From Oryzomonas sagensis (GTDB lineage Bacteria; Desulfobacterota; Desulfuromonadia; Geobacterales; Pseudopelobacteraceae), in contig NZ_VZRA01000001.1 in the NCBI RefSeq assembly GCF_008802355.1, positions 442,980 to 506,979 of the forward strand: a stretch of 64,000 nucleotides of DNA. Direction: 5' to 3'. Below the pieces are notes generated by a model. That model was not told the DNA's origin. It was given only the letters and a program-made list of their open reading frames with translations, and did not search any database. Shown piece after piece: positions 38,153-47,134 of this stretch. Within the stretch, counting starts at the first letter, position 1, and the number at the start of each line of letters is the position of its first letter. The position numbers were made by a program, and so were the translations under genes.

Positions 38153-38382
38153 CATTTTCGACAATGGGCAGGGAAGAAGGATTATAGGGCGGCCAACAAA
38201 AAAACACCCCGGCAACTAGGAGGGAAAGTCGCCAGGGCAAATGAGGGTTCTTAGGGAACCCCCGCAATGTTTTCTGTAAGTATATTTTACCAGACGCCCC
38301 CTACCCTGGCAAGCGTGAAAAAAACCCACAACAGCATGGTATCATGCGTAAAAAGCGGAGAAGCCCACCAAATCGGTCGTGG
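38153..38382. other. Convergent gap with two small hairpins
   Basis: Between the RCC1 terminator and the end of the minus-strand glycosylase gene. It contains GGCAAC/GTCGCC and GGGTTC/GAACCC hairpins near 38210-38260 and an A-rich run. No gene or known RNA is recognised. Confidence 0.5.
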
Positions 38383-43000: not shown

Positions 43001-43660
43001 CTGGGCCGTGCCGCGCATCATCGGGCGGTCGGGGCAGAGCCCGCGCCCCTTGTGCTCGGCGATCAGCTTGTCGTCCAGCATGGCGCGCATGTCGTCGAAG
43101 GTGAGTTCCTCGACCTTGAGGACCTCGTGGGAGGTGCGGAAGCCGTCGAAGAAGTGCAGGAACGGCACCCGGGCGCGCAGGGTGGCGGACTGGGCGATCA
43201 TGGCGAAGTCCATGGTCTCCTGGACGTTGTTGGAACAGAGCATGGCCCAGCCGGTGGAGCGGCAGGACATGACGTCCGAGTGGTCGCCGAAGATGGACAG
43301 GGCCTGGGCCGCGATGGCCCGGGCCGAGACGTGGAACACGGTGGAGGTCAACTCCCCGGCGATCTTGAACATATTGGGGATCATGAGCAGGAGCCCCTGG
43401 CTGGCGGTGAAGGTGGTGGTCAGCGCCCCGGCCTGCAACGCGCCGTGGACCGCCCCGGCGGCGCCACCCTCGGACTGCATCTCCACCACGGTGGGGATGT
43501 TGCCCCAGATATTTCTCTCGCCGGCGGCGCTCTTGGCGTCGGATATCTCACCCATCACCGATGACGGAGTGATCGGATAGATGGCAATGACCTCGTTGGT
43601 GGCATGCGCCACGTGGGCAGCAGCGGTATTGCCGTCGATGGTTACCATTTTTCTGCTCAT
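40088..43660 (-). CDS. nifJ: Pyruvate:ferredoxin (flavodoxin) oxidoreductase
   Basis: 1190 residues, the single-chain form. N-terminal domain: IDGNTAAAHVAHATNEVIAIYPITPSS. A pair of 4Fe-4S motifs is CIQCGICSFVCPHA and CTGCGACAHNCPAK (near 690-760), a third cluster site lies in FSGACAGCGETPY, and the thiamine-diphosphate domain has GDGWAYDIGYGG near 975. The enzyme oxidises pyruvate to acetyl-CoA and CO2 with ferredoxin as acceptor, or runs in reverse to fix CO2, in the cytoplasm. CAGGAGGAA precedes the ATG. It is central to acetate-based anaerobic metabolism. It stands alone with its own terminator. Confidence 0.98.
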   Translation of the reverse strand: MSRKMVTIDGNTAAAHVAHATNEVIAIYPITPSSVMGEISDAKSAAGERNIWGNIPTVVEMQSEGGAAGAVHGALQAGALTTTFTASQGLLLMIPNMFKIAGELTSTVFHVSARAIAAQALSIFGDHSDVMSCRSTGWAMLCSNNVQETMDFAMIAQSATLRARVPFLHFFDGFRTSHEVLKVEELTFDDMRAMLDDKLIAEHKGRGLCPDRPMMRGTAQNPDVYFQGRETVNPYYPKCIDIVQEEMAKFAKLTGRKYKLVDYVGAKDADRVVVVMGSGADVVQETVENLVKKGEKVGVVKIHLYRPFPLDAFIKALPKSVRKIAVLDRTKEPGALGEPLYLDVRTAIGEAMAEKKFSFDGYPIIVGGRYGLGSKEFNPAMAKAVLDNLKAKSPRNHYVVGIEEDVTNCSLKVDTSYKNPMDGVYQAMFYGLGSDGTVGANKNSIKIIGEETKNNAQAYFVYDSKKAGSMTTSHLRFGKKPIRAPYLVQEADFVACHNFSFLEKYDMLSKAKKGATFLLNAPFDHDEVWDRIPKEVQQQIIDKKLKFYVIDGVKLGNEIGLGPRINVIMQTSFFKISSIIPLKTAVASIKNAIKKSYGKAGEKVLEMNYKAVEAGLNNLYEVKVPSKATSKLRMAAAVSAKAPKFVKEVTGVIVAGLGDDLPVSKMPADGTFPTATSQYEKRNIAIDIPVWDDKLCIQCGICSFVCPHAVVRMKAYDAKLLKGAPASFKSADCKIPEMAGKKFTVQVAPEDCTGCGACAHNCPAKDKQNPDHKALDMHFQPPLRAPEAENFEFFLTLPDVDPTQVKLETLRSNQLVRPLFEFSGACAGCGETPYLKLLSQLFGDRMLIANATGCTSIYGGNLPTTPWAQRADGRGPAWSNSLFEDNAEFGFGMRLTVDQFNKSALEYLNELAASKAFAASAKLIKEIIGADQSTQAGIEQQRGRVDKLKAVLKGSKDQTARLLAPIADYLVKKSVWCVGGDGWAYDIGYGGLDHVIASGKNINLIVLDTEVYSNTGGQASKSTPLGAVAQFAAGGKSVAKKDLGMMAMAYGSVYVATVSLSNPAQCVKAMLEAEAYDGPSLIIAYAHCIAHGINMTTAVDEQKKAVQSGYWPLYRYNPALAAESKNPLQLDSKAPTITLEEYAYGENRWKVLQKSNPDAAASLMKKATVFTASRFAYFQKLAALTYDEPK

Positions 43661-43762
43661 GGGTTCCTCCTGTTTGTGATTATCCTGGCTATTCGTTCAA
43701 TTTGAGGTGTTATCAGTATATTTTACCATGCCATGGAAATGGCGCCACCTAGCTGTTGAAAC

Positions 43763-43964
43763 TCAGGTTGTTCAAAAATAGTCAGATCGTCGCCCCCGCT
43801 AGACAAGCCCTGCGGAGGCAGCCCTCTCTCTATCTCTCCCCCAAGGGGGGAGAGCATGCCGTGCCCTCTCCCTCTGGGAGAGGGATTGGGTGAGGGACCG
43901 CAGCGCTACGCCGCACAAGGCGGTTTTCGAGGAGGCGACGAGATGGCTGTTTTTCAACAACCTG
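43763..43964. repeat. Dispersed element with terminal inverted repeats, copy 2
   Basis: Left end 43763-43792 (CAGGTTGTTCAAAAATAG then TCAGATCGTCGC) is the near complement of the right end 43935-43964 (GCGACGAGATGGCTGTTT then TTCAACAACCTG). It is 202 bp long, with inner CTCTCCC/GGGAGAG hairpins, and is close in sequence to 28187-28386. It abuts the recR stop codon and separates recR from nifJ. Confidence 0.88.
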
Positions 43965-44558
43965 CTACAGTTCGTTTCGCCCCTGGAGCGCCCACTGCAC
44001 CGTCGCCGCATCGACGAATTCAATATCGCTTCCCAGCGGGATACCGTGGGCCAGGCGCGTGACCTTGACCCCGTACGGCTTGAGCGCCTTGGTCAGATAC
44101 AGGGCCGTCGCCTCCCCCTCCACCGTAAAGTTGGTGGCGATGACCACCTCATGGACCCCGTCGCGTCCGACCCGCTCCAGCAGTTCGGGAATGCGCAGGT
44201 CGGACGGGCCGATGCCGCCCAGGGGCGAGATCGCCCCCTCGAGGACATGGTACATCCCCTGGTAGGCGTTGCTCCGTTCCAGGGCCATCAGATCCTGGGA
44301 GTTCTCCACCACGCAGATCGTGCCGCCGTCCCGGTTGCCGGTGCAGATGGCGCAGGGGTCATCCTCGGTAACGGCAAAACAGTTGGAGCAGGCGTGAACC
44401 CTGGTGCGGACCTCCTCAAGGGATTCCGCCAGCGCCGTCATGTTGTGGGGAGATTTGAGAAGATGGAACGCCAGCCGCAGGGCCGTGCGTTCGCCGATAC
44501 CGGGCAGCTTCTTCAGTTCTCCAACCAGACGCATCAATGAGGAAGATTTTGTTAGCAT
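43965..44558 (-). CDS. recR: Recombination protein RecR
   Basis: 198 residues from ATG 44558; an in-frame GTG four codons earlier is possible. The order is helix-hairpin-helix (LKKLPGIGERTALRLAFHLL, 15-34), a four-cysteine zinc finger (Cys57, Cys60, Cys69, Cys72), a Toprim domain with VVENSQDLMALE and a Walker-like TNFTVEGEATALYL. RecR with RecO/RecF loads RecA at gaps. It belongs to the dnaX-ybaB-recR set, but 255 bases holding promoter and hairpin signals separate it from ybaB. The stop touches the repeat element. Confidence 0.97.
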   Translation of the reverse strand: MLTKSSSLMRLVGELKKLPGIGERTALRLAFHLLKSPHNMTALAESLEEVRTRVHACSNCFAVTEDDPCAICTGNRDGGTICVVENSQDLMALERSNAYQGMYHVLEGAISPLGGIGPSDLRIPELLERVGRDGVHEVVIATNFTVEGEATALYLTKALKPYGVKVTRLAHGIPLGSDIEFVDAATVQWALQGRNEL

Positions 44559-44603
44559 ATTTCCCGACACAAATAAAACATTTTTTTAAAATTATAGCAT
44601 GGA

Positions 44604-44721
44604 TAAAAAATGTGCTCCCCCGACATGGAACGGGCCGGCAGACGACCGAATACCCTGGAGGAGCACATATGAGTGACTTTCATGCCCGCAGTAGTACGGT
44701 AACGGCCTTTGCCGTATACGC
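44604..44721 (-). ncRNA. Candidate small RNA between ybaB and recR
   Basis: A near-consensus promoter on the minus strand (TTGACT, 17 bases, TAATAG) would start RNA near 44721. The transcript would contain an ACGGC/GCCGT hairpin and end at the GGAGCACAT-TTTTTT structure near 44604, about 118 bases. It may instead be a leader for recR with an attenuator. This is a prediction from signals only. Confidence 0.4.
44610..44668. other. Long-range hairpin that masks a ribosome site or ends a minus-strand RNA
   Basis: ATGTGCTCC (plus 44610-44618) pairs with GGAGCACAT (44660-44668). On the minus strand the right arm is followed by TTTTTTATCC, as in a terminator with a long 41-base loop. On the plus strand the same hairpin would hide GGAGG, the ribosome site of the 21-codon frame at 44669. 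The two readings are mutually informative but neither is proven. Confidence 0.6.
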
Positions 44722-44734
44722 TACTGACTATTAG
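44669..44734 (+). CDS. Candidate 21-residue peptide
   Basis: ATG to TAG, 21 residues: MSDFHARSSTVTAFAVYATDY. GGAGGAG sits six to twelve bases before the ATG, a strong ribosome site for such a small frame, although it can be hidden in a hairpin. It lies on the strand opposite to recR and ybaB. No modifying enzyme or transporter is next to it and no good plus-strand promoter is seen. It could be a chance frame over a minus-strand regulatory RNA. Confidence 0.3.
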   Translation: MSDFHARSSTVTAFAVYATDY

Positions 44735-44756
44735 CCGAACTAAAACTTTTAGTCAA
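44728..44756 (-). promoter_or_regulatory. Sigma-70-type promoter ahead of recR or a small RNA
   Basis: On the minus strand TTGACT (44756-44751), a 17-base spacer, then TAATAG (44733-44728). It lies in the 255-bp gap between ybaB and recR. Confidence 0.65.
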
Positions 44757-44813
44757 ATTAAAAACGCTCGTTGCCACCATGATTGCAGAAACAGCGCCGG
44801 ACGCCCGTGGGGC

Positions 44814-45128
44814 CTAGAAGAGCCCCGGGATGTTCATGCCGCCGGTGATTTTGGACATCTCCTCGGAGATCTCGCTGTGGACGCTTTTCATTGCTTCATT
44901 TACCGCAGCGATAATAAGGTCTTGCAGCATTTCCACATCATTCGGGTCAACGGCTTCCTTTTTTATCGAAAGTGAAACTATTTCGTTCTTGCCGTTGACC
45001 TGAACGTTCACCGCACCGCCGCCCGATGACGCTTCGGCCGTCCGCTGGCTGGCCTCTTCCTGGAGCCTCGCCATTTTCTGCTGAATCATCTGGGCCTGTT
45101 TCATGATGCTTGCCAAACCTTTTGACAT
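44814..45128 (-). CDS. ybaB: YbaB/EbfC family nucleoid-associated protein
   Basis: 104 residues from ATG 45128, preceded by AGGGAGG; the frame is open further but that part is not YbaB-like. It shows MSKGLASIMKQAQMIQQKM, an alpha helix then the beta core (VNVQVNGKNEIVSLSIKKE), and GGMNIPGLF at the end. YbaB dimers bind DNA in the nucleoid. It sits between dnaX (65 bases upstream) and recR, the common bacterial order, and is probably co-transcribed with dnaX. Confidence 0.95.
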   Translation of the reverse strand: MSKGLASIMKQAQMIQQKMARLQEEASQRTAEASSGGGAVNVQVNGKNEIVSLSIKKEAVDPNDVEMLQDLIIAAVNEAMKSVHSEISEEMSKITGGMNIPGLF

Positions 45129-45192
45129 CTGTGCCTCCCTGGGTGTGAAATGCTCTAAAACCTGGTTATATGATTGTTTTCCCGTCGGAACG

Positions 45193-46893
45193 CTACGCCT
45201 TGCGGACATCCGTAACAATGCCGCCGAAGATCCGTGCCGCCTCATTGATCACCGGGTGTCCTGCTACCTCCCGCTTCAGCTCCTCCATCAGGTGTTCGTT
45301 ATCGCTCTTTTTTTTTTCGGCCAGCGACTGGGGGGTTTCACCGGTTTCGGGTCTGATCGCCTTGATCCTGAGCACCGTCTCATGCCCCGTAAACTCCTGT
45401 GCCAGCGTCCTGATCTCGGCGATGAAATCCGCATCCTGGGCCATGTCGAGATAATAGCCGGCCGGGAAGCCGATTTCCATCTGCCCCGGTTCCAGCTTGA
45501 GCGGGCTGCCGTGCTCCAGCACCGACCCGTTGGCCGGGCGTTTCTCGATGCAGAACGCCACAAAACGCTCCCAGTCGGCGTACCCTCCCCGCGCCTGCGG
45601 TCGCACCGGCGGCTGTTGGGCGGCTGCGGCGACCGGTTGCGACGCCGGCTCGTCACGGGGCGGCGCCGGACGGTGCGGCGGCGCAGCGGCGGCGGTAGCC
45701 GCCGGAGCGGCCGGCCGGACGGCGTCCCAAGGGAGCGCAGGGGTATGGACCGCGCCGGTTTCGAGCCCCTTGATCTTCTCCAGCAGCTCCTGGATCGGGA
45801 TGACCGGCACGAGGGTGGCCGCCTTGAGCAGCGCAATTTCCAGGATCAGGCGGGGGAAGGTGGCGTAGGCCATCTCCGTTTCCGCCTTCAGGAGGAGGGT
45901 CAGGCGGCGCTGGATCTCCTGGGCCGAAAAGCCCCCCGCCTGGCGGCGCAGCTCTTCCAGTTCCGCCTCGGCCAGATCGAGGATCTCCTCGGGGCTCTTC
46001 ACCGAGCGGATCACCAGGAGATTGCGGAAGTGGTCGATCAACTCCTGGCAGAACTGGCGCATGTTGTAACCGACCCCGTCCACCCGTTTCACGCCGGCCA
46101 GCACCCCCTGGGTGTCGCCGGCAAAGACCGCAGCGGAAATCTCGGCCAGCAGGCGGCGATCCACCGCCCCGATCATGGTGGCCACGTCCTCGTCGCTCAC
46201 GCTGTTGCCGCAGAAAGCCAGCACCTGATCGAAGACCGACAGGGAGTCGCGCATGCTGCCGTCGCCTTTGCGGGCGATCATGGCCAGGGCGGCGTCGCTG
46301 ATGGAGATGCCCTCCTCGCCGGCAATGAAGCGCAGACGCTCGATCAGCTTCGGCAGCAGGATGCGTTTGAAATCGAAACGCTGGCAGCGGGAGAGGATGG
46401 TGACCGGAACCTTATGGGGCTCGGTGGTGGCAAAGATGAACTTTACATGGGCCGGCGGCTCCTCCAGGGTCTTCAGCAGGGCGTTGAAGGCGCTGGTGGA
46501 GAGCATGTGAACTTCGTCGATGATGAAGATCTTGTACCGGCTGTGGGAGGGGAGATACTTGATGTTGTCGCGCAGGTCGCGCACGTCGTCCACGCCCGTA
46601 TTGGAGGCGCCGTCGATCTCGAAGACGTCGGTGGAGGTGCCGTCGGTGATCTCCTTGCAGATCGGGCAGACGTTGCACGGCTCGGTGGTCAGTCCCTGCT
46701 CGCAGTTGAGCGCCTTGGCCAGGATGCGGGCCGAACTGGTCTTGCCGACGCCCCGGGCGCCGGTGAACAGGAAGGCATGGGCAACCCGGCCGGTATCGAT
46801 GGCGTTTTGCAGCGTACGGCTGACATGCTCCTGGCCGGTCAGCTCTGAGAAGGTCTGGGGGCGATATTTACGGGCGAGAACAACGTAGGACAA
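45193..46893 (-). CDS. dnaX: DNA polymerase III subunits gamma and tau
   Basis: 566 residues starting with TTG at 46893, with GAGGTAA upstream; MSYVVLARKYRPQTF is the usual DnaX N-terminus, which fixes the start. Walker A is GARGVGKTSSA (45-55), the zinc module has Cys64, Cys73, Cys76 and Cys79, Walker B is IIDEVHML, and the sensor region has LSRCQRFDF. The C-terminal half is a Pro/Ala linker plus a domain for polymerase contact. It is the clamp-loader ATPase of the replisome. An SRP RNA gene lies directly upstream. Confidence 0.97.
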   Translation of the reverse strand: MSYVVLARKYRPQTFSELTGQEHVSRTLQNAIDTGRVAHAFLFTGARGVGKTSSARILAKALNCEQGLTTEPCNVCPICKEITDGTSTDVFEIDGASNTGVDDVRDLRDNIKYLPSHSRYKIFIIDEVHMLSTSAFNALLKTLEEPPAHVKFIFATTEPHKVPVTILSRCQRFDFKRILLPKLIERLRFIAGEEGISISDAALAMIARKGDGSMRDSLSVFDQVLAFCGNSVSDEDVATMIGAVDRRLLAEISAAVFAGDTQGVLAGVKRVDGVGYNMRQFCQELIDHFRNLLVIRSVKSPEEILDLAEAELEELRRQAGGFSAQEIQRRLTLLLKAETEMAYATFPRLILEIALLKAATLVPVIPIQELLEKIKGLETGAVHTPALPWDAVRPAAPAATAAAAPPHRPAPPRDEPASQPVAAAAQQPPVRPQARGGYADWERFVAFCIEKRPANGSVLEHGSPLKLEPGQMEIGFPAGYYLDMAQDADFIAEIRTLAQEFTGHETVLRIKAIRPETGETPQSLAEKKKSDNEHLMEELKREVAGHPVINEAARIFGGIVTDVRKA

Positions 46894-47005: not shown

Positions 47006-47134
47006 TTGCAGGCGGATATGATAGCCGGGCTTACCCACGGCACACGGGGAAGCCGTTGCCGTTGCTTCCTTCCGGACCTGGCGGAGTTCACGGCGTACCG
47101 TTGCGTGGGGCCCGGCTATCATATCCGCCTGCAA
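47006..47134 (-). ncRNA. ffs: Signal recognition particle RNA (small, bacterial)
   Basis: On the minus strand the segment contains CCAGGTCCGGAAGGAAGC (near 47080-47063), the conserved SRP-RNA apical loop that binds Ffh. The two ends (47006-47030 and 47110-47134) are perfectly complementary over 25 bases. The location just before dnaX is common for ffs. Exact ends are not set; the conventional ~100-nt RNA lies inside these limits. It targets nascent membrane proteins with Ffh and FtsY. Confidence 0.9.

Follow-up and report, generated by a model that had tools for sequence, protein, structure and literature searches.

A candidate small RNA with a conserved promoter in the ybaB-recR spacer of Oryzomonas sagensis and its relatives

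We analysed a stretch of 64,000 nucleotides (nt) from the soil-dwelling iron reducer Oryzomonas sagensis (contig NZ_VZRA01000001.1, positions 442,980 to 506,979), called the window here, and found that the spacer between its DNA-repair genes ybaB and recR probably encodes a lineage-specific small RNA (sRNA), which would have a regulated promoter and be nested in the 3′ untranslated region (UTR) of dnaX-ybaB. Comparison of the spacer among relatives supports selection on the promoter block, the length, the terminator and two hairpins. A preliminary description of the window had proposed an sRNA, an attenuator of recR or a hidden 21-residue peptide for this place. The sRNA is the proposal that the comparison favours: its promoter is conserved, its length is constant, paired positions change in a compensatory way and its body is better kept than the flanking sequence.

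RecR was sought in 117 genomes, source genome included, and found in 111; each spacer was located by means of RecR and YbaB, which served as anchors. Group labels are anonymous, the source family being f1 and the source genus g1. The comparison centres on 54 recR loci of f1 outside the genera g2 (Trichlorobacter) and g9, which come from 53 genomes, G050 having two, and are called the family loci below. Outside the family 22 of 44 RecR matches were sampled, one of which (L109) lacks ybaB. The gene order in the window is dnaX, ybaB, recR, all on the minus strand, and the spacer (44559-44813) has the 255 bases described previously, provided that recR starts at the ATG at 44558. The same description regarded these bases as an out-of-place insertion, which does not hold, because a long spacer is usual in the family: measured to the RecR methionine homologous to window position 44534, it has 249-294 bases in 50 of the 54 family loci and 63-68 in the remaining four (L056, L071, L076, L084). 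The 13 g2 loci have 154-168 bases (one of them 282) and the single g9 locus 87.

The promoter elements proposed for the minus strand, TTGACT (44756-44751) and TAATAG (44733-44728) with a 17-base spacer between them, are found at these places, and the block around them is kept in 50 of the 54 family loci. When the 50 long spacers (seven genera) were aligned, the mean column identity (the fraction of rows showing a column's most frequent letter, averaged over columns) was 0.89 in the promoter (44760-44726) vs 0.47 in the sequence before it (44813-44761). TAATAG matches TATAAT in 3/6 positions; a promoter scanner favours AATAGT with an 18-base spacer. Scanning of 43600-46000 gave four promoters vs 0.8 expected and two terminators vs 2.9 expected. 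Since the first number is above and the second below expectation, one genome alone proves little, and the element is lifted above chance by its conservation in relatives.

Most letters of the promoter spacer are conserved as strongly as the hexamers, which suggests that a protein is bound here besides RNA polymerase. The −35 region is overlapped by the palindrome ACTAAA-N3-TTTAGT, where a DNA-binding regulator might sit and switch the RNA on or off. The exact palindrome occurs once in the source genome. A regulon sharing this operator was considered and rejected, as a pattern with two mismatches gave three more imperfect sites in the source genome, fewer than the reversed control. In the relatives, exact palindromes away from recR were found at seven places, two of them in G016:C55 and G036:C103; none of the other five (L216, L230, L233, L234, L235), which were inspected, is followed by the TTCGGCTAAT tail, and L216 sits within a listed 511-codon frame.

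The length of the predicted RNA is constant: in 48 of 50 promoter-bearing rows, CTAAT and the U tract are 125-130 nt apart (four Oryzomonas rows were trimmed after an over-run into a later T run, and L082 was placed by hand). Mean column identity in the same 50 rows is 0.54 in the 5′ half of the RNA, 0.74 in the terminator and 0.89 in the recR promoter and leader. We also compared 15 pairs of near neighbours, which were picked by hand and are not independent, as seven are within Oryzomonas. Overall identities were 0.52 for the spacer before the promoter (gaps were scored as differences, which lowers this figure), 0.95 for the promoter, 0.77 for the 5′ half and 0.89 for the terminator. In all 15 pairs the spacer before the promoter is less conserved than the 5′ half, which argues for a functional transcript and for more than a promoter and a terminator alone.

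The terminator was confirmed as described, with the stem arms ATGTGCTCC (44668-44660) and GGAGCACAT (44618-44610) and six T (44610-44605). The minus-strand RNA folds with −49.7 compared to −39.1 in shuffled sequences (z −2.86; 1/200 shuffles is as good). The plus strand folds nearly as well (z −2.74), as expected of a hairpin; thus, the RNA was assigned to the minus strand from the position of its U tract and from the way the promoter points. In alignment A2, which consists of 26 of 48 rows selected for a clear consensus terminator, 95.2% of the cells are paired in the named structure. Alignment A3 comprises the 45 of 54 family loci that match model R1 (44 distinct rows) and leans towards the structure, to which it was fitted; here 12 of the 16 terminator pairs show changes on both sides, with 91.2% of the cells paired. 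None of 500 shuffles reaches any of the five measures, and slid versions of the structure pair at most 60.6%. The compensatory changes that the preliminary description had suggested looking for are thus present in the terminator helices of this fitted alignment. A second hairpin, at the 5′ end, has changes on both sides in five of its six pairs (73.7% of cells paired); the single-sequence fold of the source genome pairs these bases otherwise. The terminator stem includes CUCCUCC, a complement of Shine-Dalgarno sequences. Among the 43 rows with letters there, 32 retain a U-G wobble in this stem, a hint that the CUCCUCC sequence itself may matter.

It could be argued that the spacer holds just the dnaX-ybaB terminator and the recR promoter, the promoter-like block being a DNA site (operator or architectural) from which no discrete RNA is made. 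The ybaB message needs a terminator anyway, the −10 region fits its consensus poorly and the palindrome could by itself be a DNA-binding site. A terminator alone, however, leaves unexplained why its U tract lies at a constant distance from the block, why the 5′ hairpin shows paired changes and why the spacer in front of the block is less conserved than the 5′ half. We therefore consider this explanation quite unlikely.

Several observations weigh against an sRNA. The −10 region is a poor sigma-70 match, with at most 4/6 positions in the registers compared. RNAalifold found only seven pairs in the full 48-row alignment (−0.36 kcal/mol, in a shifted register); alignment A1 omits L068 and L080, which have no RNA body. 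In the 26 rows chosen for A2, changes on both sides were seen in 3/16 pairs, which is matched by 71/500 shuffles. Both alignments with high pairing depend on how their rows were obtained, A2 by selection and A3 by fitting, and the 5′ hairpin was chosen by eye on the same alignment on which it was scored. Two of the 15 pairs show hardly any advantage of the 5′ half over the spacer (0.59 vs 0.54; 0.58 vs 0.57). The predicted fold has CUCCUCC paired within the terminator stem, so that a role as an anti-Shine-Dalgarno sequence would require opening of the stem. Nine of the 54 family loci have no R1 match, five of these with a long spacer and the promoter, and four sampled family members have a recR locus without the sRNA and keep only recR's own promoter region. 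In two g4 genomes (G008 and G015, loci L068 and L080) the promoter is kept and the RNA body is gone.

Downstream of the terminator, recR would be transcribed from its own promoter. Its −10 lies immediately behind the U tract in almost every row of the 50-row alignment, and TAAAAAnTTGTTTTAT comes after CTATAAT. This second element hardly varies among the 50 family rows, is retained in the four family loci with a short spacer and is also present in most of the g2, f2, f3 and f4 rows examined (L086-L121), even where TATAAT is missing. Operator, slippage start and leader are candidate roles for it.

Transcription attenuators and leader RNAs consist of a promoter, a structured leader and an intrinsic terminator, followed by the gene, and the ybaB-recR spacer has the same order. 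In the attenuator reading, the conserved promoter would be a second, regulated recR promoter (P1), the RNA its leader and the hairpin the attenuator, with the basal TATAAT after it; a short RNA would be the aborted product. The element precedes recR at every site examined. L068 and L080 retain the promoter but have neither the consensus terminator nor the recR TATAAT; a shorter, different stretch follows the promoter. G098, a genome of another family without a match to R1, has the palindrome ACTAAATTATTTAGT (L207, 1501-1515) in its ybaB-recR spacer before the recR TATAAT. The losses in g4 and the G098 palindrome keep alive the idea that the switch serves recR, but G098 is one genome and L068 may contain a separate small terminator at an early position (a hairpin and seven T, judged by eye) and has TTATAT near the former −10 place. 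Unlike in attenuators, the terminator is followed by a promoter that belongs to recR itself, and an antiterminator fold was not noticed in single-sequence or consensus folds, in which no search was aimed at one; a leader peptide and a ligand-type core were likewise not seen, again short of a systematic search. The recR attenuator of the preliminary description has weak support, the two g4 genomes speaking for it and the recR −10 behind the terminator against it; we judge it less likely than the sRNA and, taken by itself, unlikely. The g4 genomes look as if the sRNA promoter now drives recR.

As far as sampled, the sRNA appears to occur in a single family of Geobacter relatives, in which g2 and g9 are without it. 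Model R1, trained on 26 rows, has one match in the source genome (44605-44726), and it matches 19 of 28 loci that were not used for training at an expectation value (E) ≤1. At E ≤0.1 it was found in 39 of 117 genomes, at one place each and always at recR. The promoter pattern (≤3 mismatches) occurs in 48 of 76 family genomes, that is in 0/15 from g2 and in 48/61 others; all 48 sites that were compared, out of 49, coincide with recR loci already seen here, the remaining site being in G118. In a sample of the phylum (395 genomes, six from the family) five genomes have the pattern, three from the family and 2/389 from elsewhere. The motif outside the family was rejected, as these two matches have three mismatches each and a reversed control pattern matches more often. 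For the four genomes with no sRNA at recR, relocation to another place was also rejected, since R1 has no match in them at E ≤0.1 (stricter filters).

Spacers of g2 (L086-L088, L090, L093-L095, L097, L098) contain no sRNA; by eye, a different hairpin, with a T-rich tail, precedes the same recR promoter in them. The two recR loci of G050 (L060 and L073, on contigs C174 and C181) carry differing versions of the sRNA, and mixed strains or a duplication are possibilities.

The following scheme would account for the sRNA. A non-coding RNA of about 117 nt would be made from its own minus-strand promoter inside the dnaX-ybaB 3′ UTR and end at an intrinsic terminator, which is probably shared with the dnaX-ybaB message; no conserved terminator belonging to ybaB alone was recognised by eye ahead of the sRNA promoter. 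The least certain step is the action of the RNA: it might base-pair in trans, possibly with the help of Hfq, through its C/U-rich CUCCU segments and near ribosome-binding sites. Hfq is encoded in 68 of 72 genomes, source genome included.

For the candidate, Rfam 15 gave no match over the gathering cut-off, nothing at E ≤5 in 44540-44830 and none in the loci of eight relatives. In the open literature (subscription papers and supplements were outside our reach) we found no published description of an sRNA at the ybaB-recR locus. We class the element as a previously unreported candidate sRNA of a known kind and not as a new mechanism. Enterobacterial sRNAs of the MicL and DapZ type are nested in the 3′ UTR of a messenger RNA, have their own promoter and use the terminator of the messenger. 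The element resembles them in having a predicted promoter of its own just after a coding gene, a probably shared terminator, a single copy and an Hfq in the genome; the host gene, however, is ybaB, and the likeness is one of layout. A second comparison concerns alpha-rhizobial sRNAs. NfeR1, which has anti-Shine-Dalgarno seeds, is given as 115 nt long and AbcR1/2 as carrying the CUCCUCC-type anti-Shine-Dalgarno motif CUCCUCCC in a hairpin loop (PMC8844928). The element is similar in length to NfeR1 and shares the CUCCUCC-type motif with AbcR1/2, but its CUCCUCC is paired in the terminator stem and its host belongs to a different class of bacteria, so that the likeness to AbcR1/2 is one of motif and not of family.

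A further-reaching proposal is that the element represents a novel family of RNAs in the Oryzomonas group, with a promoter under a dedicated regulator that has essentially one site per genome and ties a signal to recR recombination repair; the RNA would act as an sRNA or attenuated leader in most genera and the promoter as a direct recR switch in g4. We regard this as unlikely. The candidate is a clean experimental target, as it occurs in one copy at a constant position among the genes and its near-invariant promoter was seen nowhere else; it could reveal a new regulator through its only site. It also marks the spacer before recR as a conserved regulatory locus, and the lineages in which the RNA, the terminator or both were lost provide a natural experiment.

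The plus-strand frame that had been described is indeed present: it runs from the ATG at 44669 to the TAG at 44734 (21 codons), and its GGAGG (44657-44661) lies within the stem. The hidden peptide itself is not borne out by conservation, as an ATG behind GGAGG is found in G000 and G002 only, two of the six genus members. A small protein might also start at [A/G]TG-CTC-CTC in the terminator arm of the minus strand, where a start-like codon is present in 37 of 50 rows, and both frames are open in the source genome. The minus-strand frame was rejected, because the start is missing in 13/50 rows, the frame shifts in several relatives (for example L014, L018, L026, L027 and L030) and no ribosome-binding site of the GGAG type was seen in the upstream bases examined. 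Thus, neither of the two frames examined, one on each strand, provides a conserved coding frame in the sRNA region, which makes a small protein very improbable.

The features of the region are listed in Table 1. We take the upstream gene to be ybaB. The closest named record for RecR is from Oryzomonas japonica Red96 (98% identity).

Table 1. Positions of predicted and comparative features around the ybaB-recR spacer (window coordinates).
Feature	Coordinates	Strand	Remarks
Conserved promoter block TTTAATTTGACTAAAAGTTTTAGTTCGGCTAATAG	44728..44762	minus	−35 TTGACT and −10 region CTAATAG; mean column identity 0.89 (44760-44726, 50 rows)
Palindrome ACTAAA-N3-TTTAGT	44739..44753	none	overlaps −35 and spacer; putative operator
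Predicted sRNA, ~117 nt	44605..44721	minus	start inferred from −10
5′ hairpin, AUACGG/CUGUAU type	44694..44717	minus	comparative; 5/6 pairs form in source genome
Terminator	44605..44668	minus	outer stem GCTCCTCC/GGGGGAGC, inner stem GGTCG/CGGCC, six T
Separate recR promoter	44571..44597	minus	−10 CTATAAT 44597-44591 and TAAAAAAATGTTTTATTT element 44588-44571; downstream of terminator
ybaB	44814..45128	minus	upstream neighbour of candidate sRNA
recR	43965..44558	minus	downstream neighbour

Elsewhere in the window, the spacer after recR (43800-43960) contains a CCCTCTCCC/GGGAGAGGG-rich stretch that resembles a dispersed repeat (candidate). Rfam matches were obtained on the minus strand for the atoC RNA (38200-38291) and for the bacterial small signal recognition particle (SRP) RNA (47020-47117).
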